The notes beneath the pieces were generated by a model. The model was not told the origin of the DNA. It searched no databases and worked only from the letters and a program-made list of their open reading frames with translations. From Mycolicibacterium insubricum (GTDB lineage Bacteria > Actinomycetota > Actinomycetes > Mycobacteriales > Mycobacteriaceae), in the NCBI RefSeq assembly GCF_010731615.1, contig NZ_AP022618.1, positions 682,001-746,000 on the forward strand: a stretch of DNA of 64,000 bases, written 5' to 3'. Below are positions 4,250 to 62,720 of this stretch, one piece after another. Each line of letters begins with the position of its first letter. Position 1 is the stretch's first letter. A program made the position numbers and the translations under genes.

Positions 4250-7200
4250 GTGTCCGAATCGTCGCGCCGGGAGATCCGCGTCCTGCGGGATCGCCTGGAC
4301 ACGCTGACCCTGGCGGACGCCGCCCGGCTCGGGCGACGGCTGCGCGGCCTGCGCGACCCCGGCCCGCAACAGCTGGAACGCCTCACCGAAGCGTTCGTCA
4401 CCGCCGAGGCCCGCATCGCCGCCCGGCTGGCCGCGATGCCGACCATCAACTACCCGGAGCTGCCGGTCAGCGAATTCCGCGACGAGATCGCCGCCGCGAT
4501 CACCGCCCACCAGGTCGTGGTGGTCGCCGGCGAGACCGGATCCGGCAAGACCACCCAGCTGCCGAAGATCTGCCTGGAGGCAGGTCGGGGGATTCGCGGC
4601 ACCATCGGCCACACTCAGCCGCGGCGCCTGGCCGCCCGCACCGTCGCGCAACGGATCGCCGACGAACTCGGCGCCCCGTTGGGTGGGGCTGTCGGCTACA
4701 CCGTCCGATTCACCGACCAGGCCAGCGACGCCACCCTGATCAAGCTGATGACCGACGGCATCCTGCTCGCCGAGATCCAGCGCGACCCCCGGCTGCTGCG
4801 CTACGACACCCTCATTCTCGACGAGGCTCACGAACGCAGCCTCAACATCGACTTCCTGCTCGGCTACCTGCGCGATCTCCTCCCGCGCCGCCCCGACCTG
4901 AAGGTGATCGTCACCTCCGCGACCATCGAGCCGGCCCGGTTCGCCGCGCACTTCGCCGACTCGGCCGGGACTCCGGCCCCGATCATCGAGGTCTCCGGAC
5001 GCAGCTACCCGGTGGAAATCCGTTACCGTCCACTGGAAGTCGAAATCCCCGCCGCCGCGACGGGCGCCGAAGACGATGTTGATGATCCCGACGGGGAAAT
5101 CGTGCGCACCGTGCTGCGCGACCAGACCGAAGCGATCATCGACGCCGTCGTCGAGCTGGAAGCCGAACCGGCCGGTGACGTCCTGGTGTTCCTCTCCGGT
5201 GAACGCGAAATTCGCGACACCGCAGAGGCATTGAACGCCGCGCTGGCCGACCGGGTATTCGGCGTCGAGGTGCTGCCGCTCTATGCCCGGCTGCCCACCG
5301 CCGAACAGCAACGGGTTTTCGCGCCGCACACCAACCGACGGGTGGTGCTGGCGACCAACGTCGCCGAGACCTCGCTCACCGTGCCGGGCATCCGCTACGT
5401 CGTCGATCCCGGCACCGCCCGGATCTCGCGCTACAGCCGCCGAACCAAGGTGCAGCGGCTGCCGATCGAACCGATCTCGCAGGCCTCCGCCGCGCAGCGA
5501 GCCGGCCGCGCCGGCCGCACCGCCCCCGGGGTGTGCATCCGGCTCTACGCGCAAGACGACTTCGACGTCCGCCCGCGCTATACCGACCCCGAGATCCTGC
5601 GCACCAACCTGGCCGCCGTCACTTTGCAGATGGCCGCCCTGCGGCTGGGAAACATCGCCGATTTCGGTTTCCTCGACCCGCCGGACCCGCGCGCCATCCG
5701 AGACGGCGTGGCACTGCTGGTCGAACTCGGCGCCTTCGACGACGCCGGGACGATCACCGAGCTGGGCCGGCAGCTTGCCCGGCTGCCCGTCGACCCCCGG
5801 CTGGGCCGGATGATCCTGGCCGCCGACGCCGAGGGCTGCCTGGACGAGGTGCTGGTGATCGCCGCGGTGCTGGCGATCCCCGACCCGCGGGAGCGGCCCA
5901 CCGGCGCCGAGGAGGCCGCGCGTGCCAAACACGCCCGCTTTGCCGACCCGAACTCCGACTTCCTGGCGTTCCTCAACCTGTGGGACTATCTCGGCGAGCA
6001 ACGAAACCAGCGCTCCGGCAGCTCGTTTCGGCGGATGTGCCGGGATGACTACCTGCACTACCTGCGGATCCGGGAGTGGCAGGACCTGGTCGGCCAGTTG
6101 CGCAGCATCAGTCGTGACGTGGGGCTGGGCGGTTCGGCGAGGCTCAGCGGAGTGGACGGGAGCGTAGCGAGTGGCCGCGGAGCCGAGGGGAAGCCGGGAC
6201 CGCCCACAAATAAACAGGGCGGTTCGGCGAGGCGCAGCAGCGCCACCGAACAACCGGCCGACCGCATTCACGCCGCGCTGCTGGCCGGGTTGCTCTCCCA
6301 CATCGGGACGCTGCCCGAACGCAGCCGCGACGGCCGCCGGGACTCGCGTGAATACCTGGGCGCCCGCAACGCCAAATTCACCCTGGTGCCCGGATCGACA
6401 CTGGCCAAACGCCCGCCAGCCTGGGTGATGGTCGCCGAACTGGTGGAGACTTCCCGGCTCTACGGCCGCATCGCCGCCCGGGTGAACCCCGACGCCGTCG
6501 AACGCGCCGCCGGGCACCTGGTCACCCGCAGCTATTCCGAACCGCACTGGGATGCCGAGCGCGGCGCGGTGATGGCTTATGAGCGTGTGCTGCTCTACGG
6601 CCTGACGCTGGTGGCCCGCCGCCGGATCTCCTATGCCCCCGTCGATCCGGTACTGGCCCGGGAGATATTCATCCGCGCCGCCCTGGTCGACGGGCAGTGG
6701 CAGACCCGGCACCACTTCTTCGCCGACAACACCGCATTGCGCGCCGAACTCGCCGAGATCGAGGAACGCTCCCGGCGCCGCGACCTGCTCGCCGAAGACG
6801 ACGAGGTGTACGCCTTCTACGACGCCCGGGTGCCGGCCGAGATCGTCTCCACCCGGACCTTCGACGGCTGGTGGCGCAAACAACGCCACGCCACCCCGGA
6901 CCTGCTCACCATGACCCGAGCCGACCTGCTTCGCACCGAGGTCGACGACGCCCACCCGGACAGCTGGCACTCCGACGGCCTGGATCTGCCGCTGAGCTAC
7001 CGGTTCGAACCCGGCGCCACCGACGACGGCGTCACCGTGCACGTACCGGTCGCCGTGCTGGCGCGCCTCGGCGGCGAGCAATTCGCCTGGGCGGTACCGG
7101 CATTGCGCCAGGAACTCATCGTCGCCCTGCTCAAGTCCCTGCCCAAGGACCTGCGCCGAAACTTCGTTCCGGTCCCCGACACCGCCCGCATACTGCTGGA

Positions 7201-8308
7201 TACCCTGGACCCCGGCACCGGCTCGCTGCCCGACGCCCTGGCCGCCGAACTACGCCGGCGCAGCGGCGTTTCCGTCACCGCCGAGGACTTCGACCCGGAG
7301 AAGATCCCCACGCACCTGCGGCTGACGTTCGCCGTCCAAGGGGCCGACGGGACCGAGGTCGCCCGCGGCAAGGACCTCGCCGAACTGCAGCACCAACTGG
7401 CCGCATCGACCCGGACCGCGGTCACCGAAGCCGTCGACCACGGACTGACCCGCACCGGCCTGCGCGACTGGCCCGAGGATCTCGACGAACTGCCCACCGT
7501 CGTCGAAACCGAGCGGGACGGACACACCGTGCGCGGCTACCCGGCGCTGGTCGACGACGGCGACGCCGGAGTATCCGTCGCGGTATTCGCCACCGCCGCC
7601 GAGGCGGCGAGCAACCAGAAACCGGGCCTGCGGCGGCTACTGCGGCTGTCGACCCCCTCGCCGGTCAAGGCCGTCGAACGCGGCCTGGCCCCCGGACCCC
7701 GGCTGATGCTCGGCAACAACCCCGACGGGTCGGCGGGCGCCCTGATCGAGGACTGCGCGGACGCCGCCGTCGACACCCTGGTCACCGCGCCGGTGCGCAC
7801 CCGCGCCGAATTCGCCGCCGCCCGCATGACCGTCGCCGACCACCTGGTCGCGCGCACCACCGACCTCCTGGGCCGCGTCACCGCCGTCCTCACCGCCGCC
7901 CACCAGGTTGCCGTCGCGATCCCCGACGCGCCTAGTGCCGGCCAGCGTGCCGCGATCGCGGATATCCGCTCACAACGCGACCGGCTGCTGCCGCCGGGAT
8001 TCGTCACCGCCACCGGTGCGGCACGGCTGCCGGATCTGACCCGCTACCTGACCGCCATCGTGCGCCGACTCGAGCGGCTAGCGCAGGCGCCGAGCGCCGA
8101 CACCGAACGAATGACCCGGGTGCACGCCGTCGAGGACGCTTATGACGAACTGTGCCAACGACTCTCGCCGCAGCGGCGGGACTCCGACGCGGTTCGGGCC
8201 ATCGGCTGGCAGATCGAGGAGCTTCGGGTCAGCCTGTGGGCGCAGCAACTCGGCACCCCGCGCCCGGTCAGTGAGCAGCGCATCTACAAGGCCATCGACG
8301 CCATCTGA
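4250..8308 (+). CDS. hrpA: ATP-dependent RNA helicase HrpA
   Basis: A 1352-residue DEAH-box helicase, the usual length for bacterial HrpA (about 1300). Walker A GETGSGKT is at residues 94-101, DEAH near 190 (LDEAHERS), motif III SAT near 222, and motif VI QRAGRAGRT near 416. The HA2, OB-fold and DUF3418 regions follow. HrpA enzymes unwind RNA and act on stalled ribosomes and mRNA. The oddity is residues of about 626-664, a Gly/Ser/Arg-rich stretch between the HA2-region helices. It is encoded by the structured repeat at 6127-6236, keeps the frame, and looks like an insertion absent from the normal family. GTG 4250 is preferred over GTG 4244. Confidence 0.95.
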   Translation: MSESSRREIRVLRDRLDTLTLADAARLGRRLRGLRDPGPQQLERLTEAFVTAEARIAARLAAMPTINYPELPVSEFRDEIAAAITAHQVVVVAGETGSGKTTQLPKICLEAGRGIRGTIGHTQPRRLAARTVAQRIADELGAPLGGAVGYTVRFTDQASDATLIKLMTDGILLAEIQRDPRLLRYDTLILDEAHERSLNIDFLLGYLRDLLPRRPDLKVIVTSATIEPARFAAHFADSAGTPAPIIEVSGRSYPVEIRYRPLEVEIPAAATGAEDDVDDPDGEIVRTVLRDQTEAIIDAVVELEAEPAGDVLVFLSGEREIRDTAEALNAALADRVFGVEVLPLYARLPTAEQQRVFAPHTNRRVVLATNVAETSLTVPGIRYVVDPGTARISRYSRRTKVQRLPIEPISQASAAQRAGRAGRTAPGVCIRLYAQDDFDVRPRYTDPEILRTNLAAVTLQMAALRLGNIADFGFLDPPDPRAIRDGVALLVELGAFDDAGTITELGRQLARLPVDPRLGRMILAADAEGCLDEVLVIAAVLAIPDPRERPTGAEEAARAKHARFADPNSDFLAFLNLWDYLGEQRNQRSGSSFRRMCRDDYLHYLRIREWQDLVGQLRSISRDVGLGGSARLSGVDGSVASGRGAEGKPGPPTNKQGGSARRSSATEQPADRIHAALLAGLLSHIGTLPERSRDGRRDSREYLGARNAKFTLVPGSTLAKRPPAWVMVAELVETSRLYGRIAARVNPDAVERAAGHLVTRSYSEPHWDAERGAVMAYERVLLYGLTLVARRRISYAPVDPVLAREIFIRAALVDGQWQTRHHFFADNTALRAELAEIEERSRRRDLLAEDDEVYAFYDARVPAEIVSTRTFDGWWRKQRHATPDLLTMTRADLLRTEVDDAHPDSWHSDGLDLPLSYRFEPGATDDGVTVHVPVAVLARLGGEQFAWAVPALRQELIVALLKSLPKDLRRNFVPVPDTARILLDTLDPGTGSLPDALAAELRRRSGVSVTAEDFDPEKIPTHLRLTFAVQGADGTEVARGKDLAELQHQLAASTRTAVTEAVDHGLTRTGLRDWPEDLDELPTVVETERDGHTVRGYPALVDDGDAGVSVAVFATAAEAASNQKPGLRRLLRLSTPSPVKAVERGLAPGPRLMLGNNPDGSAGALIEDCADAAVDTLVTAPVRTRAEFAAARMTVADHLVARTTDLLGRVTAVLTAAHQVAVAIPDAPSAGQRAAIADIRSQRDRLLPPGFVTATGAARLPDLTRYLTAIVRRLERLAQAPSADTERMTRVHAVEDAYDELCQRLSPQRRDSDAVRAIGWQIEELRVSLWAQQLGTPRPVSEQRIYKAIDAI
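6127..6236. repeat. Structured repeat inserted in frame within hrpA
   Basis: One complete 90-base unit (6127-6216) is followed by the first 20 or so bases of a second copy. The hairpin unit spans 6127-6205: outer arms GGGCGGT (6127-6133) and ACCGCCC (6199-6205), then CGGC/GCCG, then CTCAGC against GCCGAG. The core GCGAGTGGCCGCGGAGCCGA is identical to the copies at 58.8 and 62.5 kb. The whole insertion is free of stops in the hrpA frame and its length leaves the downstream frame intact. Confidence 0.9.
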
Positions 8309-8323
8309 TGGATCACCCGCCCT

Positions 8324-8339
8324 AGCTCCGTTGGGAGCT
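8324..8339. terminator. Short hairpin between convergent hrpA and tetR
   Basis: AGCTCC and GGAGCT pair around a 4-base loop just after the hrpA stop and touch the stop of the convergent TetR gene. There is no U-tract, so termination is only a suggestion. Confidence 0.35.
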
Positions 8340-8998
8340 CAGTCCTGCCGGTGCAGGAAGCCGTGCAGGGTGGCCGCCACCAGCTCGTCGACCATGGCCT
8401 CCCGCGGTGGGGGCTGGTCGCCGAAGAAGGTGGACCGCAGGGCGACCATCCCGACGATCGTCGCCACCACCGAATGGGCGGGCAGATCCGTTTGGTCGGA
8501 ACGTATTCCGCGCAAGCTCATGCCCTCGCCGCTGATCCGGCCGAGCAGGCTCAGGGACCGGCGGATGTCGGTGATGCCGGTGCTCTCCAACTCCTCGTCG
8601 CCGAGCCCGTCGGCTGCGACCAGGGTGAGCAGCAGGCCCTTGTGGTCGACGAGCACGTCGTAGAGACGACCGACGAACTGGCGGGCCAGCTCCTTTTCGT
8701 CGGTTTCCTCGGGGACCACCGCGGCCCAGGTGGCGCCGAACTCGTCGATGAAATCGGTGAACGGCAGCACCAGCGCTTCCCGGAACAGCCCCGCCTTGGC
8801 ACCGAAGTGCCGGAACAGCAGGTACTCGGCGACCCCGGCGGCTTCGGCGACCTCGCGGGTGGTGACCGCTCGGTAGTCGCGGCGGCCGAACAGCTCACGG
8901 GCCGCGCCGAGCAGCAGTTTGCGTGCCTCGCCGGGCGGCCGGCGGGTCGCCGGCTTGGCGCCGGTGGGCCGCTTCCCGGTCGAACTTCCCTGGGGCAC
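8339..8998 (-). CDS. TetR-family regulator
   Basis: A 219-residue protein with a basic N-terminal tail of about 25 residues, then a TetR helix-turn-helix (TTREVAEAAGVAEYLLFRHF at about residues 45-65) and an all-helical ligand domain. It is divergent from the small membrane protein, AveC-like and P450 operon. A perfect 18-base palindrome at 9070-9087 lies between them. The simplest reading is that this protein represses that operon and itself in the absence of a hydrophobic ligand; the ligand is not evident. Confidence 0.9.
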   Translation of the reverse strand: MPQGSSTGKRPTGAKPATRRPPGEARKLLLGAARELFGRRDYRAVTTREVAEAAGVAEYLLFRHFGAKAGLFREALVLPFTDFIDEFGATWAAVVPEETDEKELARQFVGRLYDVLVDHKGLLLTLVAADGLGDEELESTGITDIRRSLSLLGRISGEGMSLRGIRSDQTDLPAHSVVATIVGMVALRSTFFGDQPPPREAMVDELVAATLHGFLHRQD

Positions 8999-9069
8999 GG
9001 TTCATCACTTTCTCCGCCGCGGTGTGCGGTCGCATGTTCACGATAGGCGCATCCTTGACCCGCCCCGAT

Positions 9070-9087
9070 TAATAGTGTCCACTATTA
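9070..9087. promoter_or_regulatory. Perfect palindromic TetR operator candidate
   Basis: TAATAGTG-TC-CACTATTA is an exact inverted repeat of two 8-base arms, between the TetR gene and the operon starting at 9119. Its size and symmetry are typical for TetR dimers. A TTGACC at 9056-9061 may be part of an overlapped promoter. Confidence 0.75.
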
Positions 9088-9118
9088 CGTGGTGAACGGC
9101 CCGGTTTAGGAGGCGGCG

Positions 9119-9235
9119 GTGGGTGCAATCGTCATGCTCGGCACACTGTTCGGACTGATAGCGCTGATTGCGGCGCTGGTGTGCTACTTCGATCCGGAGG
9201 CGCGCGGCGCCGCGGCCCCGGAGGGTGACCGGTGA
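9119..9235 (+). CDS. Small single-span membrane protein
   Basis: A 38-residue reading frame beginning at GTG, 5 bases after a strong TAGGAGG ribosome-binding site (9107-9113). Residues of about 4-22 are hydrophobic (MLGTLFGLIALIAALVCY), followed by an acidic/Ala-rich tail. The stop overlaps the GTG of the AveC-like gene (GTGA), indicating translational coupling. It is probably a small partner or translational leader of the AveC-like membrane enzyme. The coding status rests on the RBS and overlap; the function is unknown. Confidence 0.65.
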   Translation: MGAIVMLGTLFGLIALIAALVCYFDPEARGAAAPEGDR

Positions 9236-18051: not shown

Positions 18052-19638
18052 ATGCGCCAACTTTCCAGTGCCGACTGGACGATGGTGGCACTCGACACCT
18101 CGACCGCCCACAACACCATCGGCATCGTCGGCATCTACGACCCGTCGACGCGCGGTGAGTCGCGCGGCCCGGTCACCTACGAGGAGGTGCTGAAGTACCT
18201 CGAAGCGCGCCTGCACGTCGCCGAAAGCTTCCGGGAACGGCTCGTCGAAGTCCCGTTCGGGCTGGACCGGCCCTGGTGGATCCGGGACGGGGACTTCGAC
18301 CTGGAGTACCACCTTCGGGAGATCGCGCTGCCCGCGCCGGGCAGTTGGCGGCAGCTGTGCACTCAGATCGCCCGGATCCACGCGCGACCCCTGGACCTCA
18401 GCAGGCCGCCCTGGGAGCTGTACCTGATCGACGGGCTCGACGGGGTCGACCACCTGCCGCAGGGTGCCTTCGCGGTATTCCTGCGGATACACCACTCCGC
18501 CATCGACGGTGTCGCCGGCGCCGAGATCCTCACCGCGATCCACAGCCAGGAACCCGGGGACAGTGCACCGCCGATCCCGGAGGGTTACCACTGGGAACCG
18601 GACACCGTCCCGTCCGACCTGGACCTGCTGAGCCGCGCGGCGCTGCACGGTGTCGCCCGGCCGGTCGACGTCCTGCGCCAGGTCGTCTCGGTGGCGCCAC
18701 AACTACCCGCGCTGGTATCCGACACCCGCGACCCGTCCGTGACGTCGCCGGCGACGCTGCCCAAGGCGACCCGGTTCAACCAGGTGGTGTCGCCACACCG
18801 GGTGTTCGGCACCGCGTACACGACACTGGACGTCCTCAAAGAGATCCGCGCGGCGGTGCCGAACGCGACGATCAACGACGTCGGTGTCGCCGTCGTCGGC
18901 GGGGCCATCCGGCGCTACCTCCTGGACAAGGACGAGTTGCCCGACGAGGCCATGGTGGCGATGATGCCGATCTCGGTCCGCCCGACGGCCACCCGCGCCA
19001 GCGGCACGGCAACCTCGGAGACCAGCACTCAGACCAGCGGAAACGAGTATTCCGTCGCGCCCATCACAATGGCGACCGACGAGGAGGACCCGCTGGTCCG
19101 GCTGGCGCGCATCGTGACCTCGACCGCGCACGTCAAGGAGTCAGGAGCCCACCCCGTCCGAGCGCTGATCGCGATGTCGGAGGAGGCCATCGGCGGGCTG
19201 ATGGGCACGGTGCAACGGGCCGCGGTGCGTGCCCTGAGCCGGCGGGGGCGCGCCGTCGCCGCCCACACCCTGGTGAGCAACGTCCCCGGACCGCAGACCC
19301 CGATGTACTTCTGCGGCGCACAGATGGTCGACACCACCGGCCTGGGCCCGGTGCTCGACGGCATGGGGCTCAACAACGGCATCGGCAGCTACGGCAACCG
19401 GGTGACGTTCTGCTTCACCGCCGACCGCAAGGCCCTCCCCGACCCCGAGGTGTACGAGCAGTGCCTGAGCGGCGCCGTCGAGGAACTGCTCGATGCCGCC
19501 CGCGCGAAGGTGCAAGCCGAGCCGGCGAAGAGAGCGCCGGCCAAGAAGGCGCCGGCTAAGGCAGCACCCGTCAAGGCAGCAGCGGCCAAGCAAGCCCCGG
19601 CCAAGAAAACGGCCGTCAAGAAGGCGCCGGCCAAGTAA
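18052..19638 (+). CDS. Wax ester synthase/diacylglycerol acyltransferase
   Basis: A 528-residue WS/DGAT. The catalytic motif HHSAIDG is near residues 147-153, with PLDLSRPPWELYLIDGL just before it and SNVPGP in the C-terminal condensation-like domain. It makes triacylglycerol or wax ester from acyl-CoA. The unusual part is the last 40 residues or so, made of AKKAPAK/AAPVK repeats: a Lys/Ala/Pro-rich tail like that of histone H1 or mycobacterial HupB, not needed in most family members. GGAGG precedes the ATG. The gene is probably cotranscribed with the alpha/beta-hydrolase upstream. Confidence 0.94.
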   Translation: MRQLSSADWTMVALDTSTAHNTIGIVGIYDPSTRGESRGPVTYEEVLKYLEARLHVAESFRERLVEVPFGLDRPWWIRDGDFDLEYHLREIALPAPGSWRQLCTQIARIHARPLDLSRPPWELYLIDGLDGVDHLPQGAFAVFLRIHHSAIDGVAGAEILTAIHSQEPGDSAPPIPEGYHWEPDTVPSDLDLLSRAALHGVARPVDVLRQVVSVAPQLPALVSDTRDPSVTSPATLPKATRFNQVVSPHRVFGTAYTTLDVLKEIRAAVPNATINDVGVAVVGGAIRRYLLDKDELPDEAMVAMMPISVRPTATRASGTATSETSTQTSGNEYSVAPITMATDEEDPLVRLARIVTSTAHVKESGAHPVRALIAMSEEAIGGLMGTVQRAAVRALSRRGRAVAAHTLVSNVPGPQTPMYFCGAQMVDTTGLGPVLDGMGLNNGIGSYGNRVTFCFTADRKALPDPEVYEQCLSGAVEELLDAARAKVQAEPAKRAPAKKAPAKAAPVKAAAAKQAPAKKTAVKKAPAK

Positions 19639-19724
19639 GCGCCCAGCTCCTCGCGGGCGTGCGCGGGGGCTGCGGAGTCCTGGGATTGCCGGCCCGGTCG
19701 ATCCTGAATCGCGGTGGGTTCGGC

Positions 19725-19801: not shown

Positions 19802-20443
19802 ATGGCGGAGTCCGGGGACCCGGGTGAGGAATCGCCGCAGCCCGGAGTGGCTCCGGATGCCGAGAAGGGCGCGCCGGACGGGCGCTCGCCCAGGTTCTGG
19901 TTGGTCGGTGGCGGGCTGGTCCTGGTCGTCGTTGCCATTGCGCTCACGCTGCTCGGTTCCGACAAGCCCAAGCCCGACATCATCACCCTGACCGACACCA
20001 TGTTCCTGACCGCAACCGAGTTCCCCGTCGTCGACGGCGGTCGGTACCGGCTGTCGTCGGTGATCACGATGCGTGACGAGCAGGACCCCAAATGCGGCTG
20101 GGGAGGCATGGTGCAGCGCGGCGAGGCCGGCGTCGCCACCGATTCCCGGGACAAGACCATGGAAGTGCTGCTGGTGGTTGCCGAACGCAAGCCCGACCTG
20201 GGCGCGTTTCCCGATTGCCTCCCCGACAGCGTGCACACGTTCGATGTCCCCGGGCTGCCGTCGGGGGCCGTGGCCTTCTCATTGGCCGGCGATGGCGAGG
20301 GAGCCAACCTCAGCGCCTTCGGGTATGTCCGCGGAGTGCTCATGCGTGTTGCGGTGAAGGACCGGGGTGGCGCCATGGACCAGGTCAAAGCGGATCTGGT
20401 GACCGTCTACAACCGACAGGCCGACAAGCTCGACAAGGCCTGA
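19802..20443 (+). CDS. Membrane-anchored protein, duplicate A
   Basis: A 213-residue protein. An acidic/Pro N-terminus of about 30 residues precedes one transmembrane helix (FWLVGGGLVLVVVAIALTLL) and an extracytoplasmic domain of about 160 residues. That domain starts KPKPDIITLTDTMFLTATEF and has two or more Cys (CGWGG, DCLPDS) that could form a disulfide. The domain is homologous to the next gene (DGGRY, CxWGG, GLPSG, GxVRGVL, VYNxQADKL). No known function is recognised. Start ATG 19802 (RBS AGGGGG) is preferred over the overlapping GTG 19799. Confidence 0.78.
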   Translation: MAESGDPGEESPQPGVAPDAEKGAPDGRSPRFWLVGGGLVLVVVAIALTLLGSDKPKPDIITLTDTMFLTATEFPVVDGGRYRLSSVITMRDEQDPKCGWGGMVQRGEAGVATDSRDKTMEVLLVVAERKPDLGAFPDCLPDSVHTFDVPGLPSGAVAFSLAGDGEGANLSAFGYVRGVLMRVAVKDRGGAMDQVKADLVTVYNRQADKLDKA

Positions 20444-20528
20444 TCGTCACGCCTCGAGCGTTGGCTTGCGTTCGATGACCCGCCGGCGCGGTGGGACACA
20501 AGGCAAGACTGGACGCCCGGCGGGCCGC

Positions 20529-20557
20529 TTGACGAGGGGGGAGGAGCCTCTTAGCGT
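20529..20557 (+). promoter_or_regulatory. SigA-like promoter, copy 2
   Basis: TTGACG, 17 bases, TAGCGT, with a spacer nearly identical to that at 19725-19753. Predicted initiation is near 20564, exactly where the triple 14-base repeat starts, leaving a leader of about 118 bases before ATG 20682. Confidence 0.7.
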
Positions 20558-20563
20558 CGCTGG

Positions 20564-20605
20564 GAAGTGGCTGTGAAGAAGTGGCTGTGAAGAAGTGGCT
20601 GTGAA
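20564..20605 (+). repeat. Three perfect 14-base direct repeats
   Basis: GAAGTGGCTGTGAA is repeated three times without a mismatch at 20564-20577, 20578-20591 and 20592-20605. It lies at the predicted 5' end of the mRNA for duplicate B and is absent from duplicate A. The unit is not a multiple of three, so copy-number change would shift any reading frame through it. Confidence 0.9.
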
Positions 20606-20681
20606 ACTGTCCCGGGAGCGCGGGGCGGAGACGGGAGAGCGTCGTGACGGTGCTGACTGCGGTGACGGCGGGGTGGGTTCG

Positions 20682-21416
20682 ATGACGGGTCCGTGGGATC
20701 CGCAGGCGGGTGGACCGTCGGGGAACCCCTGGCCGGGCCAGCCGGGCGCGCCGCAACCGGGGCCGGATCAGCCGGGTGACCCGAGTGCGCAGTACCCACC
20801 GGGCTGGCAGCCGGCACCCGGTACGGCACCGCCGCCCGCGGCCAAGGGGCGCTCCACCAAGTTTTGGCTGATCGGCGGCGGGGTGGTCTTCGTTGTCGCC
20901 GCCGTGGTGATCGCAATGATCGCGGTCCTGACGGCGACGAAGTCCAAGCCCGACATCACCGACCTGACCGCGTCGATGCTGTTGACCGAGAACGAGTTTC
21001 CGTCGGTCGATGGCGGCAGATACAAGCAGCGGGGTGTGAAATCAGTCGACGAGGAATCAACGGATAGGTGCCCGTGGGGCGGCAAGGGCCAGACCGCCCA
21101 GGCAACCCTGGACGGTTCTGGTAAGACGCGGGAGTTCCGTACGATGCTGGCCCTCATCGATCCGACACCCGACCCCGCGGCAGCACCCCGATGTGTGTCC
21201 AGTGATGCGGAGACGATCAATGTCACGGGGCTGCCGTCGGGGGTGGTTGCCGTGTCAGACCCGCAAGATGCGAGCGTCGAGCTCACGGCGGTTGGTTTGG
21301 TTCGCGGCGTTCTCGTTGCGGCCGAGGTCCACAATCCGGACAACTCCATGGACCAAGCCAAATCGGACCTGGTGGCCGTCTACAACGCGCAGGCGAACAA
21401 GCTCAACAAGGCTTAG
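20682..21416 (+). CDS. Membrane-anchored protein, duplicate B
   Basis: A 244-residue paralogue of the preceding gene. The N-terminal half is Pro/Gly/Gln-rich (PGQPGAPQPGPDQPG) and cytoplasmic, followed by one membrane helix (FWLIGGGVVFVVAAVVIAMI) and an outer domain with the same landmarks as duplicate A (DGGRYK, CPWGGKG, GLPSGVV, VRGVLVA, VYNAQANKL). Pro-rich tails of this type in mycobacteria often contact partner proteins. ATG 20682 is chosen by analogy with duplicate A; GTG 20595 inside the repeats would add 29 residues. Function unknown. Confidence 0.78.
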   Translation: MTGPWDPQAGGPSGNPWPGQPGAPQPGPDQPGDPSAQYPPGWQPAPGTAPPPAAKGRSTKFWLIGGGVVFVVAAVVIAMIAVLTATKSKPDITDLTASMLLTENEFPSVDGGRYKQRGVKSVDEESTDRCPWGGKGQTAQATLDGSGKTREFRTMLALIDPTPDPAAAPRCVSSDAETINVTGLPSGVVAVSDPQDASVELTAVGLVRGVLVAAEVHNPDNSMDQAKSDLVAVYNAQANKLNKA

Positions 21417-39105: not shown

Positions 39106-39117
39106 TTGTCCGTACAA
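39106..39117. promoter_or_regulatory. Possible GntR half-palindrome operator
   Basis: TTGTCCGTACAA has 5 of 6 arm positions symmetrical and lies between the candidate promoter and the ribosome site of the rightward operon. The family assignment of the site is a guess from context. Confidence 0.35.
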
Positions 39118-39129
39118 AAAGGGGTTTGT

Positions 39130-40080
39130 GTGGCGGATCAGCTGGGCCTGTCGGGGCGTGTGGTGCTGGTCGCCGGCGCGTCCGGCGGCGGCATCGGCAC
39201 CGCGGTCACCGAGGCCGTCGCCCGCGCCGGCGCCACCGTGGTGGCCCTGGGACGGTCCGCCGAGAAGCTGGAGCGCGACCTCGGTCCCCTGGTCGACGCC
39301 GGCCTGCCGATCGTTCCGGTGGCCGCCGACGTCGGCACCGACGAGGGGATCGCCACCGCGATGGCCGCCGCGCGCGCCGCCGACGGCACGCTCTACGGAC
39401 TGGTGAACATCGCCGGCGGCGCCGACCCGTCGACCTGGATGCCGTGCACCCGGGTCAGCCGCGCGGACTGGCGAAACCTGTTCGCGCAGAACCTGGAGAC
39501 CATGTTCTTCATGAGTCAGGCGGTGGCCGCCGAACTGCACGCGGCCGGGCTGCCCGGATCCATTGTCTCGGTCTCCTCGATCAGCGGCATGAACAGCGCG
39601 CCGCTGCACATCGGATACGGCACCGCCAAGGCCGCGATCGTCGCCGCCACACGCACCATGGCCGTCGAACTGGCCTCCTCGGGCATCCGGGTCAACGCCG
39701 TGGCGCCCGGGGTCACCGAGACCCCCGCCTCGGGCACCTACGTCGCCGCCGACCCCGACCGCGACGCCCGCGCCATCGCCATGGGCCGCCGCGGCCGGCC
39801 CGCCGAGCAGGCCGGCGCCATCCTGTTCCTGCTGTCCGACCTGGCCGGCTATGTCACCGGGCAGACCCTGTTGGTCGACGGGGGCCTGAACCTGCGCTGG
39901 ACGCACCTGGGCGCCGACAACACCTCGCTGTTCCTCGCCGACGAGGGGTTCCGCGCCGCCATCACGAGTTGGGATAGGGGTGGCCCCGGTTTCGCCTCGA
40001 CTCCACCGGCACTCGCTCCGCTCGTGCCACCTCCGTCGAGCCTCGCCGAACCACCCCGTTGGGAGAACCCGAATGACTGA
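39130..40080 (+). CDS. Short-chain dehydrogenase with repeat-encoded C-terminus
   Basis: A 316-residue SDR with a GASGGGIG cofactor loop at residues of about 14-21, Ser in VSVSSISGM and Tyr/Lys in YGTAK near 165. The normal fold ends soon after TLLVDGG; about 30 further residues after SWDRGG, rich in Pro, Ser and Ala, are encoded by the structured repeat at 39975-40057. Start GTG 39130 has AAAAAGGGG 5 bases before it. The stop overlaps the Rieske gene start by 8 bases. It probably oxidises an alcohol at the head of the rightward operon. Confidence 0.88.
   Translation: MADQLGLSGRVVLVAGASGGGIGTAVTEAVARAGATVVALGRSAEKLERDLGPLVDAGLPIVPVAADVGTDEGIATAMAAARAADGTLYGLVNIAGGADPSTWMPCTRVSRADWRNLFAQNLETMFFMSQAVAAELHAAGLPGSIVSVSSISGMNSAPLHIGYGTAKAAIVAATRTMAVELASSGIRVNAVAPGVTETPASGTYVAADPDRDARAIAMGRRGRPAEQAGAILFLLSDLAGYVTGQTLLVDGGLNLRWTHLGADNTSLFLADEGFRAAITSWDRGGPGFASTPPALAPLVPPPSSLAEPPRWENPND
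39975..40057. repeat. Structured repeat at the SDR/Rieske junction
   Basis: Outer arms GGGGTGG (39977-39983) and CCACCCC (40051-40057) pair exactly. Inside, GTCGAG-type and GGCAC/GTGCC arms also pair. It is in the opposite orientation to the hrpA copy and is the most diverged member of the family. GTTGGGA occurs directly on both sides (39968-39974 and 40058-40064), as a target duplication would. Confidence 0.8.
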
Positions 40081-41440
40081 CACCGCGGAGCCGCTCTCCG
40101 AGCCGATGACCATCGACGTCGCGGCCTACATCAGCCCCGAATACGCCCGCGCCGAGCGAGACCGGTTGTGGCGCAAGGTCTGGCAGCAGGTCGGGCGGGT
40201 CGAGGAACTGCCCGAGGTGGGCAGCTACCTGACCCACGACATCCTCGACGACTCGATCATCGTGGTCCGCACCGCGCCCGGAACCGGAGGCGAAAGCTTC
40301 ACCGCGCACCACAACGTCTGCATGCACCGCGGGCGACGGCTGATCGACGTCCCCGAGGGCGCCAAGCAGGCCGCCGGGCGGGCCCGCAAGTCCTTCGTCT
40401 GCGGGTTCCACGGCTGGACCTACGGTCTGGACGGCGCCTGCACCCACATCCGGGAGTGCGACGACTGGCAGGGCGCGCTGACCGCCGCCAACACCCATCT
40501 CGCGCCGGTGCGGGTGGACACCTGGGGCGGGTGGGTGTGGATCAACATGGATCCCGACGCCGAGCAGCTGGCCGACTACCTGTTTCCCGCCGCGAAGATC
40601 CTCGACCCGTTCGGTCTGGAGAACATGCGCTGCAAGTGGCGCAAGTGGGTGCACTTCGACTGCAACTGGAAAGTCGCCCTGGAGGCGTTCAACGAGACCT
40701 ACCACGTCTTCACCACCCACCCGGAGTTCAACCGGTTCGGCGAGTTCAAGGGCTGGGCGCGAGCCCAGGGCCGGCACAGCAACATCGGCTACGACGCGCC
40801 CAAAGATCTGGAGGAGACCCAGTCCAAGATCCGCCTCGGCACCGGCGATCCCCGGATCTCCACCGCTGAGATGCAGATCTACACCATGGAGGAGACCAAC
40901 GCGACGACCACCGAGACGCTGGTCAACGCGGCCCGGCGGCTGGTCGACGAACTGCCCGAGGGCACCCCGGCGGACAAGGTGCTGGAACACTGGCTGGCCT
41001 CCGCGCGTGCCGACGACGCCGCCCGCGGCGTGGTCTGGCCGACCATCCCGGCCGACATCCTCGGGCAGAGCGGAACCGCCTGGCAGATCTTCCCGAACTT
41101 CCAGATCGGCCAGGGCCTGACCAGCGCGCTGTGCTACTCGGCGCGGCCCGACCCGAGCTACAACCCCGACAAGTGCATCTTCGAGGTTTCGGTCTTCGAG
41201 CTGTACCCCGACGGCGCCGAACCCGAAACCGATTGGGAATACACGCCGGTCGGCGACCCGCGGTGGCGATCCGTGCTGCCCCAGGACTTCTCGAACATGG
41301 CGGCCGTGCAGCAGGGCATGAAGTCGGCCGGCTTCCCAGGGACCCTGCCCAACCCCTATCGCGAACGCAGCACCGTCAACCTGCACTACCAACTCTCGAC
41401 CTATATGGGGACCGGTGTGCCCCGCGAGCTCGACCACTGA
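40073..41440 (+). CDS. Rieske non-heme iron oxygenase, alpha subunit
   Basis: A 455-residue ring-hydroxylating oxygenase. The Rieske [2Fe-2S] ligands are CMHRGR near residue 83 and CGFHGW near 110. The mononuclear iron site is in the C-terminal domain (NETYHVFTTH near 206, giving two His, with a later Asp/Glu). It hydroxylates or cleaves a ring with O2 and electrons from a reductase not encoded nearby; no beta subunit is present, as in KshA-type or O-demethylase systems. It starts inside the end of the SDR gene, just past the repeat. Confidence 0.95.
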   Translation: MTDTAEPLSEPMTIDVAAYISPEYARAERDRLWRKVWQQVGRVEELPEVGSYLTHDILDDSIIVVRTAPGTGGESFTAHHNVCMHRGRRLIDVPEGAKQAAGRARKSFVCGFHGWTYGLDGACTHIRECDDWQGALTAANTHLAPVRVDTWGGWVWINMDPDAEQLADYLFPAAKILDPFGLENMRCKWRKWVHFDCNWKVALEAFNETYHVFTTHPEFNRFGEFKGWARAQGRHSNIGYDAPKDLEETQSKIRLGTGDPRISTAEMQIYTMEETNATTTETLVNAARRLVDELPEGTPADKVLEHWLASARADDAARGVVWPTIPADILGQSGTAWQIFPNFQIGQGLTSALCYSARPDPSYNPDKCIFEVSVFELYPDGAEPETDWEYTPVGDPRWRSVLPQDFSNMAAVQQGMKSAGFPGTLPNPYRERSTVNLHYQLSTYMGTGVPRELDH

Positions 41441-54659: not shown

Positions 54660-54663
54660 CTCG

Positions 54664-56543: not shown

Positions 56544-56598
56544 TGGGGTTCCTTTCCCGTGGGCGCGACGGCCCGGCGGCATCTCAATCGGTTGGTGA

Positions 56599-57195: not shown

Positions 57196-57235
57196 CGTCG
57201 CCTCCTTCGCCGGATCCTCGCCAATAGCCTTCTCG

Positions 57236-57276
57236 ACTTTACGATCGTATAGTAACTTCCTAGTCGATCGTAAAGT
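57236..57276. promoter_or_regulatory. Large inverted-repeat operator
   Basis: ACTTTACGATCG (57236-57247) and CGATCGTAAAGT (57265-57276) are exact 12-base arms separated by 17 bases. Each arm contains its own CGATCG palindrome, so two dimers could bind side by side. It lies between TetR (57195) and the P450 (57299). Confidence 0.8.
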
Positions 57277-57298
57277 TTTCACGAGAGGTGGGCGGCCG

Positions 57299-58588
57299 AT
57301 GGCCGAGCTTGAAGAGCTGGATTTTTTCACCGACCAGTCCCTGGTCGCCGACCCGTACCCGTACATGGAGGCCATGCGGGAGGGCTGCCCGGTGCGACGG
57401 GAGCCGCACAAGGACGTCCTGGTGGTCACCGGGTACGACGAGGCCGTCGCGGTGTTCGGCGATGCCGACACCTTCTCATCGTGCACCGCGGTGACCGGAC
57501 CGTTCCCCGGCTTCCCGATCCCGATCGAAGGCGCCGCCGACGACGTCTCCGACCTGATCGACCAGTACCGGGACCAGCTGCCGTTCAGTGACCAGGTCAC
57601 CGTGATGGACCCGCCCAAGCACACCGAGCACCGGGCGCTGCTGATGGGCCTGATCACGCCGAAGCGCCTCAAGGAGAACGAGGACTTCATGTGGCGGCAC
57701 GCCGACCGCGCTCTGGAGCCGTACCTGGCCGCCGGCGGCGGCGAATACATCGCCGACTTCGCCCAGCCGTTCACCCTGGCGATCATCGCCGACCTGCTCG
57801 GCGTCCCGGAGTCCGACCGCGCGGAGTTCGCGTCGAAGATGAGTCACCAGAACAGCGGCGGCGGCGTCGGAAGTACCTCCACCAGCTCGATCGGGCACAG
57901 CCCGCTGGAGTACCTCTACGAGAAGTTCTCCCGCTACATCAGCGACCGGCGGGCCAACCCGCGCGACGATGCGCTGACCGAGATGGCCAACGCCACATTC
58001 CCGGACGGTTCGACGCCGGAGGTGATGGACGTGGTGCGCATTGCGGCCAACCTCTACACCGCCGGCCAGGAGACCACCGTGCGGCTGTTGAGCACCGCGC
58101 TCAAACTGCTGGCCGAGGACCCCGAACTGCAGCAGCTGCTGCGCAACGAGCCCGAGCGCATCCCGAACTTCATCGAGGAGACGCTGCGCATCGAAAGCCC
58201 GGTCAAGGGCGACTTCCGGCTGGCTCGGCGCAACACCGTCGTCGGCGGCGTGGACGTCCCCGCCGGGGCGACCGTCATGGTGATGAACGGCGCGGCCAAT
58301 CGGGATCCCCGCCAGTTCGAGAACCCGGACGCCTTCGACGTCGACCGACCCAACGCCCGACGGCACATCGCGTTCGGGCGCGGCCCGCACAGTTGTCCGG
58401 GGGCGCCGCTGGCCCGAGCGGAGGCGAAGGTGGCCCTGGACCGGCTGCTGGCCGCCACCGCCGACATCCGGCTGTCCGAGGAGCATCACGGTCCGGCTGG
58501 GGCGCGCCGGTTCAATTACGTGCCGACGTTCATCCTGCGCGGGCTGACCGACCTGTATCTGGAAGTGACGCCGGCGGTGCAGCGATGA
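57299..58588 (+). CDS. Cytochrome P450
   Basis: A 429-residue P450. The I-helix reads YTAGQETTVRLL near residue 255, ExxR is in EETLRI, and the heme loop FGRGPHSCPG is near 359-368 with Pro after the Cys. It has a long flexible Gly/Ser segment before the I-helix (NSGGGVGSTSTSS). The ferredoxin gene overlaps its stop by 4 bases, so this pair is a self-contained monooxygenase apart from the reductase. It is regulated by the divergent TetR. Confidence 0.95.
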   Translation: MAELEELDFFTDQSLVADPYPYMEAMREGCPVRREPHKDVLVVTGYDEAVAVFGDADTFSSCTAVTGPFPGFPIPIEGAADDVSDLIDQYRDQLPFSDQVTVMDPPKHTEHRALLMGLITPKRLKENEDFMWRHADRALEPYLAAGGGEYIADFAQPFTLAIIADLLGVPESDRAEFASKMSHQNSGGGVGSTSTSSIGHSPLEYLYEKFSRYISDRRANPRDDALTEMANATFPDGSTPEVMDVVRIAANLYTAGQETTVRLLSTALKLLAEDPELQQLLRNEPERIPNFIEETLRIESPVKGDFRLARRNTVVGGVDVPAGATVMVMNGAANRDPRQFENPDAFDVDRPNARRHIAFGRGPHSCPGAPLARAEAKVALDRLLAATADIRLSEEHHGPAGARRFNYVPTFILRGLTDLYLEVTPAVQR

Positions 58589-58773
58589 TCGCCGTCGTCA
58601 ACGACGGCCTGTGCCGTGGGCACGGCGTCTGCGTGGGACTGTGCCCGGAGGTGTTCACCCTCACTGAGTGGGGCTACGCCGAGGCGATCGACACCCCGGT
58701 GCCGCCGGAACAGGCCGAGCGGGTCGCCGAGGCGATCGCCGCCTGTCCCGAACACGCCATCAGCGCCGAATAG
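58585..58773 (+). CDS. P450-associated 3Fe-4S ferredoxin, CxxHxxC type
   Basis: A 62-residue ferredoxin. The cluster motif is CRGHGVC (CxxHxxC) followed by CPEVF and CPEHAI. In the classical 4Fe-4S pattern the His position is Cys; mycobacterial P450 ferredoxins often carry His or another residue there. An additional Cys (GLCPE) lies just before the PEVF motif. It is translationally coupled to the P450 and is its probable electron donor. Confidence 0.93.
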   Translation: MIAVVNDGLCRGHGVCVGLCPEVFTLTEWGYAEAIDTPVPPEQAERVAEAIAACPEHAISAE

Positions 58774-58790
58774 CGGCCGGCGGATCGGGC

Positions 58791-58976
58791 AACCGCCGGG
58801 TTCTGCGCGGCGGTCCCGGCTTCCCCTCGGCTCCGCGGCCACTCGCTTCGCTCGCGCCCACTCCGCCGAGCATCGCCGAACCGCCGGGTTTTGCGCGGCG
58901 GTCCCGGCTTCCCCTCGGCTCCGCGGCCACTCGCTTCGCTCGCGCCCACTCCGCCGAGCATCGCCGAACCGCCGGG
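58791..58976. repeat. Two tandem structured repeats, 88-base period
   Basis: Units at 58791-58878 and 58879-58966 are identical but for one or two positions and are closed by a third AACCGCCGGG (58967-58976). Each hairpin spans 79 bases: CGGCGGT (58808) with ACCGCCG (58880), and CGGCGGT (58896) with ACCGCCG (58968). The minus strand carries the same core as the hrpA copy. The array fills the space between convergent ferredoxin and ldtA and ends at the ldtA stop codon. Confidence 0.93.
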
Positions 58977-59735
58977 TCAGGCGTTGACGATCACCGGGTC
59001 GCCGACGCCGACGGTGTTGTAGTACCAGGCCGCGTTGTCCGGGCTGATGTTGATGCAGCCGTGGCTGACGTTGGAGTAGCCCTGCTGGCCGACCGACCAC
59101 GGAGCGGAGTGCACGTAGACCCCGCCCCAGGTGATCCGCACGGCGTAGTTGACCGTCAGCTTGTAGCCCTCGGGGTCGTTGAGCGGGATGCCGATGGTGC
59201 GTGAATCCATCACCACCGGGTTCTGCTTCTCCAGCACGGTGAAGGAGCCGACCGGGGTCGGGTGCTTGGGCTTGCCCATCGAGGCGGGCATGGTGCGGGC
59301 GACTGCGCCGTCGATGCTGACGGTGAAGGTGTGCTTGGAGATGGAGGCCACGCCCAGCACGGCGGCACCGGTCTCGAAGTTCAGCGGCACCGCGCCCACC
59401 GACCCCTTGATCTGGGAGTGCGCCGGCCAGAACTCGGTCGGGACGAACTGCACGGTGTGATCGTCGAGCCACTCGAAGCTGCCGGTGGGATTGGCCGGCG
59501 CGGTGATCTTGATCGTGCTCTCGACGCCCGCGCGGGCGCTCTCGGCGACCGGGGCGGCGAAGGTGACGATCACCGGGTGCGCGACACCGACCGTCGAGCC
59601 GGTGGCCGGTTGCACCCGGACCACCGTCGCGCCGGTGTCACTGGCCACCGATGCGCTACCGACGGCTGCGGTGTTCAGCATGGCCAGCAGCAGTGCCGTC
59701 AGCAATGTGAGGGCCATACGCACAGGTCGCCGCAT
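58977..59735 (-). CDS. ldtA: L,D-transpeptidase LdtMt1-like
   Basis: A 252-residue exported enzyme that makes 3-3 crosslinks in peptidoglycan. It has a signal sequence (residues of about 7-28) and an immunoglobulin-like domain (about 35-125; VGVAHPVIVTFAAP). The YkuD catalytic domain includes the stretch VYVHSAPWSVGQQGYSNVSH and HGCIN, with the nucleophile at Cys227. Length and motif position match M. tuberculosis LdtMt1 (251 residues, Cys226). ATG 59735 is chosen; a longer frame reaches 59813 but adds non-signal sequence. Its stop abuts the tandem repeats. Confidence 0.93.
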   Translation of the reverse strand: MRRPVRMALTLLTALLLAMLNTAAVGSASVASDTGATVVRVQPATGSTVGVAHPVIVTFAAPVAESARAGVESTIKITAPANPTGSFEWLDDHTVQFVPTEFWPAHSQIKGSVGAVPLNFETGAAVLGVASISKHTFTVSIDGAVARTMPASMGKPKHPTPVGSFTVLEKQNPVVMDSRTIGIPLNDPEGYKLTVNYAVRITWGGVYVHSAPWSVGQQGYSNVSHGCINISPDNAAWYYNTVGVGDPVIVNA

Positions 59736-59760
59736 TGATCGGTATCCCTTCGACTTCGGT

Positions 59761-59782
59761 GAATCACCGATGGTAGTGATTC
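59761..59782. promoter_or_regulatory. Inverted repeat in ldtA leader
   Basis: GAATCAC and GTGATTC are exact arms around 8 bases, extendable by GG/CC with one wobble. It lies 26 bases upstream of the ldtA ATG and could be a leader hairpin or operator. Confidence 0.5.
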
Positions 59783-59975
59783 GCCCGGACTGAACAGTAA
59801 CGTCGCTGCTCACCTCTGTTTTGTTACCGCGGCTCGGGGGTGGGATCGGTCACACCGCCACCCCGGCCGCCCGGCTGCTGCGCGGAGACCCGCGACAAAT
59901 CTCGGTCGACGAACGATCGGATGAACCTGTGGCTAAGGGTCTGTAACGATCCGTGCGGGCCGCGGGACGCACCGA

Positions 59976-60012
59976 GAGTGGAATTTTGTGCCGATCGTGA
60001 GAAATTCCACTC
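59976..60012. promoter_or_regulatory. 11-base inverted repeat in fbp-ldtA intergenic region
   Basis: GAGTGGAATTT (59976-59986) and AAATTCCACTC (60002-60012) are exact arms separated by 15 bases. The surrounding 607-base divergent gap (59736-60342) has no convincing gene. The repeat is AT-rich compared with its surroundings and is a probable protein-binding site or transcript hairpin. Confidence 0.6.
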
Positions 60013-60188
60013 GGCCTCTGTTCGACCCTTCCCGATGCCTTCGCGGTCGGCAGTGGCGTTTCCGCTGGTGGAGGCGTAATCTTGCGCTCCCCGGCAGGTG
60101 CGGTGCGGCCGGAACCCAGGCTGATCACGCGGCGGATGTAACGCCAGGTCACCCCGCCGACGATGACCTGATCGGAGAGCCTGCGGCT

Positions 60189-60217
60189 TTCCCAGCGCGG
60201 GATGTCCCTGTTAGGGT
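60189..60217 (+). promoter_or_regulatory. Candidate fbp promoter
   Basis: TTCCCA, 17 bases, TAGGGT (TANNNT). It would give a leader of about 120 bases that includes the palindrome TTGGC-GCAT-GCCAA at 60237-60250. The ribosome site GCAAGG lies just before ATG 60343. Confidence 0.4.
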
Positions 60218-60321
60218 CAGCCCGCAAGCACTGCGGTTGGCGCATGCCAAAACTTCGTCAGTAGTCGTTTTCCGCAGCAGGTGTGGAAAGCATGAAGTCG
60301 CGACGGTTGTGCGTCGCATAA

Positions 60322-61326
<1,005 letters not shown>

Positions 61327-61337
61327 GTCCAGTAGTC

Positions 61338-61379
61338 ATCGAAAAGGTCCCTCACCCTCGGGTGAGGGACCTTTTCGAT
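61338..61379. terminator. Intrinsic terminator after fbp
   Basis: Exact 20-base arms (61338-61357 and 61360-61379) around a 2-base loop. The right arm ends CTTTTCGAT, giving a U-rich tail, and the left arm begins ATCGAAAAG, so it can also work in the other direction. Confidence 0.9.
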
Positions 61380-61437
61380 ATCCGGCGCCGGCCCGGGTGA
61401 TGTCGTCGCCGGCGCTCGATTGTGTTTGGCTAGAGGC

Positions 61438-62550
61438 ATGAGATTTCCCCGGCTTCGCGCCGTCGCCGCGGCCGCCGCGGCGCTGACCCTGATCCTGACG
61501 GGTTGCAGCCCCCCGTCGCACGACAACGACCGCGGCCCGGCCGCCACCGCCACTTCCGCGGCCGATCTGGGGGGACTCGACGGATTGATCGCCAAGGCCA
61601 AGGCCGAGGGGGAACTCAACGTCATCGCGCTGCCGACCCGGTGGGCCAACTACGGCGAGATCATTGACGCGTTCACCGCCAAGTACGGCATCAAGGTCAA
61701 CTCCGCGCTGCCGGACGCCAACAGCCAGGAGGAGATCAACGCAGCCGTCCAGCAGCGTGGCAAGAAGACCGCCCCCGACGTGTTCGACCTCGGGCAGGCC
61801 GTCACCCTGGCCAACGTCGACAAGTTCGCGCCGTACAAGGTCGCGACGTTCGCCGACATTGCCGACAAGCTGAAGGATTCCGAGGGCCGCTGGGTCGCCG
61901 ACTACGGCGGCTTCATGTCGATCGGCTACGACTCCGCCAAGGTGCCCACTGTGGGTTCCGTGGCTGACCTGCTGAAACCCGAGTTCAAGGGCAAGGTCGC
62001 CCTCAACGGCGACCCCACCCAGGCCGGCGCCGGGTTCTCCGGCGTGCTGATGGCCTCGCTGGCCCGCGGTGGGTCGGCCGATGACATCGGACCCGGCGTG
62101 GACTTCTTCCGGGATCTCAACCAGGCGGGCAACTTCCTGCCGGTCGACCCCACCCCGGCGACCATCGAAGCCGGCCAGACGCCGGTGGTGATCGACTGGA
62201 ACTATCTCAATGGCGCCGAGACCGAGCAGGTGCCGACGTGGCGGGTGTTCGTGCCCAACGACGCCGCGGTGGCCGGTTACTACTTCCAGGCCATCAATGC
62301 CGACGCCCCGCATCCGGCCGCCGCCCGGCTCTGGCAGGAGTTCCTGTTCAGCGACGAGGGGCAGAACCTGTTCGCCCACAGCGGGGTGCGGCCGGTGCGC
62401 GCCGACGTCATGATGATCAACCGGACCCTGGACCGCAAGGCCTTCGAAACGATGGTCACCATCGACGGGCCGATCACCATCCCCACCGAGGACCAGGTGC
62501 GCGCCGCCACCGTCTACCTCGCCGACAATTGGGCCAAGGCCATAGGGTGA
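61438..62550 (+). CDS. ABC transporter substrate-binding lipoprotein
   Basis: A 370-residue lipoprotein with signal peptide and lipobox LTGC (Cys23), then a type-2 periplasmic-binding fold. LIAKAKAEGELNVIALP and FTAKYGIKVNSALPDANSQEE are typical of spermidine/putrescine, iron or thiamine binding proteins. GFMSIGYDS, GDPTQAGAGFSG and WNYLNGAE line the ligand cleft. The ligand is not determinable by eye. Its last codons and TGA lie within the first bases of the tandem repeat at 62541. It is followed by two permeases. Confidence 0.9.
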   Translation: MRFPRLRAVAAAAAALTLILTGCSPPSHDNDRGPAATATSAADLGGLDGLIAKAKAEGELNVIALPTRWANYGEIIDAFTAKYGIKVNSALPDANSQEEINAAVQQRGKKTAPDVFDLGQAVTLANVDKFAPYKVATFADIADKLKDSEGRWVADYGGFMSIGYDSAKVPTVGSVADLLKPEFKGKVALNGDPTQAGAGFSGVLMASLARGGSADDIGPGVDFFRDLNQAGNFLPVDPTPATIEAGQTPVVIDWNYLNGAETEQVPTWRVFVPNDAAVAGYYFQAINADAPHPAAARLWQEFLFSDEGQNLFAHSGVRPVRADVMMINRTLDRKAFETMVTIDGPITIPTEDQVRAATVYLADNWAKAIG

Positions 62551-62720
62551 TTCGGCGAGACTCGGTGGAGTGGACGGGAGCGCAGCGAGTGGCCGCGGAG
62601 CCGAGGGGAGGCCGGGATCACCCGCAGAAACATAGGGTGATTCGGCGAGACTCGGTGGAGTGGACGGGAGCGCAGCGAGTGGCCGCGGAGCCGAGGGGAA
62701 GCCGGGATCACCCGCAGAAG
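62541..62720. repeat. Two tandem structured repeats, 90-base period
   Basis: Units 62541-62630 and 62631-62720 differ at two positions. Each contains a 79-base hairpin with outer arms GGGTGAT and ATCACCC (62545-62551 with 62617-62623). The core is identical to the hrpA and 58.8 kb copies. The array begins inside the stop of the binding-protein gene and ends 9 bases before the permease ATG, within a transporter operon. Confidence 0.93.

Follow-up and report, generated by a model that had tools for sequence, protein, structure and literature searches.

Hairpin repeat units in the 64-kb window

The window analyzed here is a whole stretch of 64 kb (positions 682001 to 746000 of a genome assembled as one contig of 4,577,045 bases), and it carries full units of a short hairpin repeat at four loci. 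Direct reading, a repeat search, and covariance model R1 recovered six full units across the 64 kb. The first-pass annotation had counted seven near-complete or partial units at four loci; the loci hold, and the count is corrected to six full units plus two partial 5′ ends.

The first unit (6125 to 6207, plus strand) lies in frame inside hrpA (4244 to 8308, plus strand), the gene for a 1,354-amino-acid ATP-dependent RNA helicase, where it adds LGGSARLSGVDGSVASGRGAEGKPGPP and interrupts the match to the HrpA model. The 5′ end of a partial second unit (GGGCGGTTCGGCGAGG; 6217 to 6232, plus strand) follows approximately 90 nt past the first. At the second locus, a single minus-strand unit (39976 to 40058) is antisense relative to both neighboring genes. 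A short-chain dehydrogenase open reading frame (ORF) (39106 to 40080, plus strand) reads through this unit, whose antisense encodes the C-terminal extension of the protein, and the stop codon of the ORF (40078 to 40080) lies 8 nt into the downstream gene for a Rieske ring-hydroxylating oxygenase (40073 to 41440, plus strand; putative start ATG at 40073), giving the overlap ATGACTGA.

The two remaining loci hold pairs of full units. On the minus strand, the first unit of one pair (58894 to 58976) adjoins the stop codon of an L,D-transpeptidase gene (58977 to 59813, minus strand); the second (58806 to 58888, minus strand), seen by direct reading and with the covariance model, is followed by the partial 5′ arm CCCGGCGGTT (58791 to 58800, minus strand), which closes the array. 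In the other pair, the plus-strand unit at 62543 to 62625 supplies the TGA stop codon (62548 to 62550) of a solute-binding-protein ORF (61420 to 62550), and its plus-strand neighbor (62633 to 62715), one base apart from it in sequence, lies upstream of a permease gene with a putative start ATG at 62730. Local tandem copies are near identical. Three tandem loci with a period of 88 to 90 nt had been proposed earlier; two of them have full copies (spacing of 88 and 90 nt), and the third is the hrpA locus with its one full and one partial unit.

No tRNA was found in the window, and no Rfam family reached the gathering score there; membership in an Rfam family was rejected. Repeats of other kinds also occur: six overlapping copies in 15-nt steps at 19522 to 19644, apparently an Ala/Lys/Pro-rich coding tail, and a segment at 19964 to 21412 present in two adjacent copies, 73 to 84% identical and approximately 975 nt apart.

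Copy number and distribution

The family is present in this genome far above the number expected by chance. A blastn search of the 4.58-Mb genome yielded at least 53 matches (E ≤ 0.001; scoring covered the best 40 of 72 candidates), and the covariance model, built on 52 aligned units, gave at least 93 matches genome-wide (E ≤ 0.01; best 150 of 10,077 first-look candidates scored). Grouping these 93 matches gives 71 loci, of which 53 have a single match and 18 have two or three, so that the family has the short, dispersed, often tandem unit typical of mycobacterial interspersed repetitive units (MIRUs). Match length is mostly 83 nt (range, 37 to 111 nt), tandem spacing is 87 to 90 nt (most commonly 90 nt), and many loci have partial ends. 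The tandem loci and frequent partial ends are what would be expected if these were ordinary minisatellites sharing a GC-rich motif and never dispersed, but that explanation is made highly improbable by the scatter over 71 loci (just one match at 53) and by the empty orthologous sites described below.

Within the genus, at least 50 of 396 genomes have a match at an E value of ≤0.001, which is a minimum, since scoring covered 11 candidates in each genome; the first-pass view of an interspersed family is thus borne out in this genome and beyond it. Across the order, at least 7 of 298 genomes match at an E value of ≤0.0001, all of them within this genus, one of 76 (15 candidates scored). Matches occur in 14 of 16 chosen relatives, with 81, 57, 42, 41, 33, 31, 21, 20, 17, 14, 8, 7, 1, and 1 copies, and the other two (G394 and G162), which are near this genome at hrpA, have none. 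Among the 80 matches listed in a pattern scan, at least 71 are in records titled Mycolicibacter and at least 7 in records titled Mycobacterium sp. UM_WGJ, with at least one each under the titles Mycobacterium sp. 1274756.6 and Mycobacterium colombiense GF76. The GF76 unit (NZ_QMEU01000003.1) is 75 nt long; contamination or mislabeling is possible in this case, since GF74, an isolate of similar name, is recorded as Mycolicibacter senuensis. Relatives carry shorter versions of approximately 53 nt (period of 57 nt), 62 nt (period of 66 nt), and 73 to 77 nt (period of 78 to 79 nt).

Carriage on plasmids or phages was considered and set aside, the window unit having no match at an E value of ≤0.001 among 72,556 records of plasmids and 50,697 of phages. 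We found no description of the family in the open-access literature searched, which is not a claim of absence from print, and its 15-letter strings did not occur in the open-access papers searched.

Fold, covariation, and strand

Each unit is a hairpin with an 11-pair outer helix, inner helices, and a loop, followed by a short tail of approximately 4 to 10 nt; the two together make up one tandem period (87 to 90 nt here and 57, 66, 78, or 79 nt in relatives). Direct reading of the units agrees with the earlier description of outer arms that differ between loci yet stay complementary, and the second-helix swap of CTCGGC/GCCGAG for CTCGAC/GTCGAG is present.

Covariation exceeded that of shuffled and slid controls and was seen in two separate alignments, which upholds the covariation of the arms noted earlier. 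The first alignment takes in 52 of the 93 matches and represents 49 distinct units. Its cells are 97.7% paired, two-sided changes occur in 10 of 23 pairs, and covariation scores 0.244 versus 0.127 after shuffling. None of 500 shuffles reached the observed paired cells, two-sided changes, or score, and 1 of 500 reached the count of further pair types; structures slid along the alignment were 26 to 45% paired. The second alignment comprised 32 shorter units from other genomes (34 entries, from which L157 and L205 were dropped). It has the same architecture, with 97.9% of cells paired, two-sided changes in 8 of 24 pairs, and a score of 0.183 versus 0.119 (0 of 500 shuffles for these three measures and 8 of 500 for further pair types). 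Parsimony on trees built from one unit per locus, with the tested pair left out, counted, over 39 loci, 28 switches from one Watson-Crick type to another, and units have on average 0.57 broken pairs versus 2.15 expected under independent sides. These counts are inflated by kinship of the copies, which the shuffles leave in, and we claim no P value for covariation because the copies are related. The fold is conserved by compensatory change while its letters vary.

Template switching can rewrite hairpin arms without selection, and the covariation might accordingly be mutational, with quasipalindrome correction copying one arm onto the other. The outer arms do covary most (7 of 11 pairs), which fits such copying, but the inner helices covary too. 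In addition, conserved G·T pairs persist uncorrected at columns 10-74 (44 of 49 units) and 34-48 (45 of 49 units), which counts against correction because it should yield Watson-Crick pairs. We regard this explanation as quite unlikely.

Departures from Watson-Crick pairing are strongly asymmetric. In the window's family, there are 43 G·T versus 6 A·C departures (at 10 versus 5 of 23 pairs), and in relatives there are 21 versus 4 (at 9 versus 2 of 24 pairs). The minimum free energy of the sense strand is the lower one in 52 of 52 units (mean, −46.3 versus −34.2 kcal/mol). The excess of G·T over A·C departures and the lower sense-strand energy therefore point to one folded strand, either RNA or single-stranded DNA.

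Genomic placement

Placement and reading phase were assigned with a simple codon-score gene caller rather than from curated annotation. By these calls, 53 of the 71 loci are intergenic, 16 lie inside genes (13 sense and 3 antisense; hosts include hrpA, murD, and an M18 aminopeptidase gene), and 2 are unclear. The 12-nt left edge contains a stop triplet at 32 of 71 loci versus 13% of random windows, which were not matched for gene ends. Siting at gene junctions resembles that of MIRUs, as first proposed. In one relative, an ATGA was found at the junction (L136 versus L243; genes not called there).

Such placement could also be expected of host RNA elements, that is, bidirectional terminators or stabilizers of mRNA ends, for which selection for function would explain both position and covariation. 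Consistent with this, 18 of the 71 loci lie between convergent genes, many units begin a few bases from a stop codon, and the sense strand folds best. However, the excess of convergent over divergent sites (18 versus 10) is not significant (P = 0.18), and loci between codirectional genes are divided into 13 sense and 12 antisense despite the much better fold of one strand, so that the orientation data do not support a host RNA function. Copies within hrpA, murD, and other genes, the lack of any five-T run after a stem in the window, and empty orthologous sites in relatives also argue against such a function, which we consider unlikely.

Insertion at orthologous sites

The mobility suggested by the first-pass annotation is evident as insertion against empty orthologous sites. 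No unit is present at the hrpA site in the 29 relatives aligned. Among named relatives, 20 loci have empty orthologous alleles, 56 alleles in all. This set was reduced from 23 loci and 62 candidate alleles by taking out L226, L167, L208, and one allele with a piece of the element; one of the 56 (L252 at L186) still has a 13-nt remnant of the element, and for one L246 allele the gain is 55 nt. At 13 of the 20 loci, the most frequent net gain is exactly one period, 57 nt, and the remaining modal gains (45, 48, 51, 51, 54, 54, and 66 nt) are each a multiple of 3. Insertion at most of these loci therefore added one period.

For the loci of this genome, comparison with six relatives yielded 23 comparisons from 8 of the 22 loci queried. 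Single units account for 86 to 97 nt in 16 of 17 comparisons and for 36 nt in one, which is one of five comparisons at 2350153. Double units account for 178 and 180 nt at two loci and for 150 to 171 nt at 4385395. These empty sites are blurred because the closest relatives found are only approximately 83% identical at hrpA, and no close pair of strains with a fresh insertion was found.

Units in murD of this genome and in murD of UM_WGJ are no more than 12 nt apart, and in the relatives compared with either genome this position is empty, which suggests a permissive or preferred insertion site. The murD assignment comes from a model scan for this genome and from direct reading for UM_WGJ. In the M18 aminopeptidase gene, one site is occupied by a 62-nt unit in a relative (G175:437200-438000) and by two 83-nt units in this genome (4385395); either an old shared insertion has changed in internal length, or insertion happened there twice.

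At several loci, the target resembles the CCGGCG arm of the element. Likeness between the target and the element's own 5′ arm is weakly positive with nonindependent controls (Fisher P = 0.014; Kolmogorov-Smirnov P = 0.024) and is suggestive only; the repeats seen, at some junctions, are short CGG/CCGG ones. General target-site duplication, hinted at by L048 (CAAGGATTA on both sides) and L132, is not supported over 81 loci (P = 0.148). These observations bear on a possible origin as a miniature inverted-repeat transposable element of a DDE insertion sequence, for which a target-site duplication of fixed length and terminal inverted repeats like those of the insertion sequence would be expected.

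Reading phase inside genes

Units inside genes show a strong phase bias. In this genome, 11 of 13 sense insertions are in one phase (P = 0.0006), with the translation PGGSARLGG...GRGAEGKPGPP, and in relatives, 23 of 28 sense loci are in the matching phase (P = 5 × 10−7), encoding the peptide GGSARLDGGEAKLGPPH. Merging four pairs at the same or nearly the same site leaves 19 of 24 in the main phase. For relatives, 5 of 81 loci had no flank, 43 of the other 76 were unclear or outside genes, and a false pattern match (L145-5832) was removed from 29 sense loci.

The main phase encodes a hydrophilic linker rich in Gly and Ala (GGSARL...KxGPP). Two sense frames are free of stops in 48 of 52 units of the type found here and the third is free of stops in 32 of 52, and stops alone therefore do not explain the phase bias. 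The bias would instead reflect selection against the highly charged peptides of the other phases, perhaps together with codon-phased targets.

Relation to known repeats and proposed mechanism

MIRUs are units of approximately 50 to 100 bp that, to our knowledge, lack obvious palindromes; they and similar minirepeats underlie mycobacterial strain typing, and we know of no solution to how they move. According to PMC12548453, MIRUs, reported by Supply (1997) as cited there, are short repeats of many mycobacteria, apparently mobile, with insertion at start codons and −4-nt coupling. PMC4213456 describes 77-bp and 53-bp MIRU units in the senX3-regX3 gap and limits these to Mycobacterium leprae and the tuberculosis complex. 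By description, the family here is like MIRUs in genus, size class, tandem arrays, siting at gene junctions, apparent mobility, and lack of an encoded enzyme; it differs in its longer units (80 to 83 nt; period mostly of 90 nt), its strong covarying hairpin, and its frequent in-gene copies.

The family could be the MIRU family itself, the long units here and the 53- and 75-nt units of relatives being homologous to the MIRUs of Mycobacterium tuberculosis. Described MIRU mobility and start-codon coupling, the 77-bp and 53-bp senX3-regX3 units, and the 53- and 75-nt units of relatives (with tails such as GCATGAACC) favor this homology. Weighing against it are the periods of 57, 66, 78, 79, and 87 to 90 nt, the restricted host range of the senX3-regX3 MIRUs as given in that source, the overlap at 39976, which is not ATGA, the apparent lack of palindromes in MIRUs, and the 16 of 71 loci inside genes. 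A MIRU02 primer pattern occurred in 0 of 396 and 0 of 397 genomes, overlapping sets in which M. tuberculosis was not found. We put this homology at nearly even odds, and it is compatible with the explanation that we prefer.

Likeness extends to other small repeats. The Myt-1 family of M. tuberculosis (72 bp, 75 copies, predicted common structure) resembles the family here in size, copy number, predicted common structure, and mycobacterial host, going by the description in PMC2267715. Rickettsia palindromic elements (RPEs; Ogata 2000 and 2002, as described in PMC10969869) are palindromic mobile repeats of approximately 150 bp, many of which lie in frame within unrelated genes and encode a conserved peptide. 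The in-frame insertions into unrelated genes with a common peptide found here (11 of 13 and 23 of 28) parallel that description; the host phylum, smaller units, and tandem arrays differ, and we liken the two by description and claim no homology.

REP and BIME elements are short, dispersed, imperfect hairpins near gene ends that are moved in trans by RAYT (Y1) transposases. The family here is alike in form and position but has many in-gene copies and no Y1_Tnp gene in the 12 genomes searched. The units contain no transposase, as had been observed; the accompanying suggestion of a REP-type RAYT mover is not supported, since PF01797 was found in 0 of 12 genomes and in 5 of 14 controls. The RVT_1 reverse transcriptase domain (PF00078) was likewise rejected as a general mover, being present in 1 of 12 genomes, not in this genome, and in 3 of 14 controls. 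Its sole occurrence (G351:4205065-4205754) is an open frame of 569 amino acids. A likeness to integron attC sites was set aside on account of core sites that fail to match. A wider pattern matched at 0 of 126 loci.

We consider it probable (approximately 0.7) that these repeats are a MIRU-like, nonautonomous mobile hairpin family of this genus that also works in the manner of RPEs and inserts in trans one period at a time. Units would be inserted singly by a trans-acting, non-RAYT enzyme, and further units would arise by local tandem duplication. Most simply, the fold is kept by compensatory change because the mover recognizes the folded strand (RNA or single-stranded DNA), which we infer to be its substrate. 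Inserts may survive where they do the least harm, that is, beside stop codons, at gene junctions, and in one phase within genes, with purifying selection presumably behind the phase bias. The elements look like tiny mobile elements tuned for harmlessness. Strand-specific folding, one-period insertions, phase preference within genes, and the shorter 53-, 62-, and 75-nt relatives are additions to the first-pass reading.

A more specific proposal, which we hold tentatively, is that the family is the mycobacterial counterpart of RPEs: minute, recognized by structure, harmlessly translated as a benign linker in the main phase, and inserted one period at a time at CCGG-like targets, with a mover other than a RAYT or an RVT_1 reverse transcriptase. 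Periods would then often be whole codons (57, 66, 78, and 90 nt), with exceptions of 79 nt in relatives and 88 and 89 nt here. Protein-coding selfish hairpins would then be found outside Rickettsia as well, in actinobacterial enzymes such as MurD. The family yields simple predictions (one period gained and one reading phase), and these, together with the many sites occupied or empty between species and the covariance model, make the question of movement testable.

Some units in this genome depart from the usual length or composition. Those at 968460, 3241679, and 2923049 are longer (110 to 111 nt) and match the model over its full length. Units at 839293, 853317, 1906120, and 3922258 are chimeric, with a second repeated segment inside that resembles GGCGGAGCCTGCGGAGCCAGCGCTGGCCGGATCCGACC and may be a different element that nested in the hairpin unit or recombined with it.
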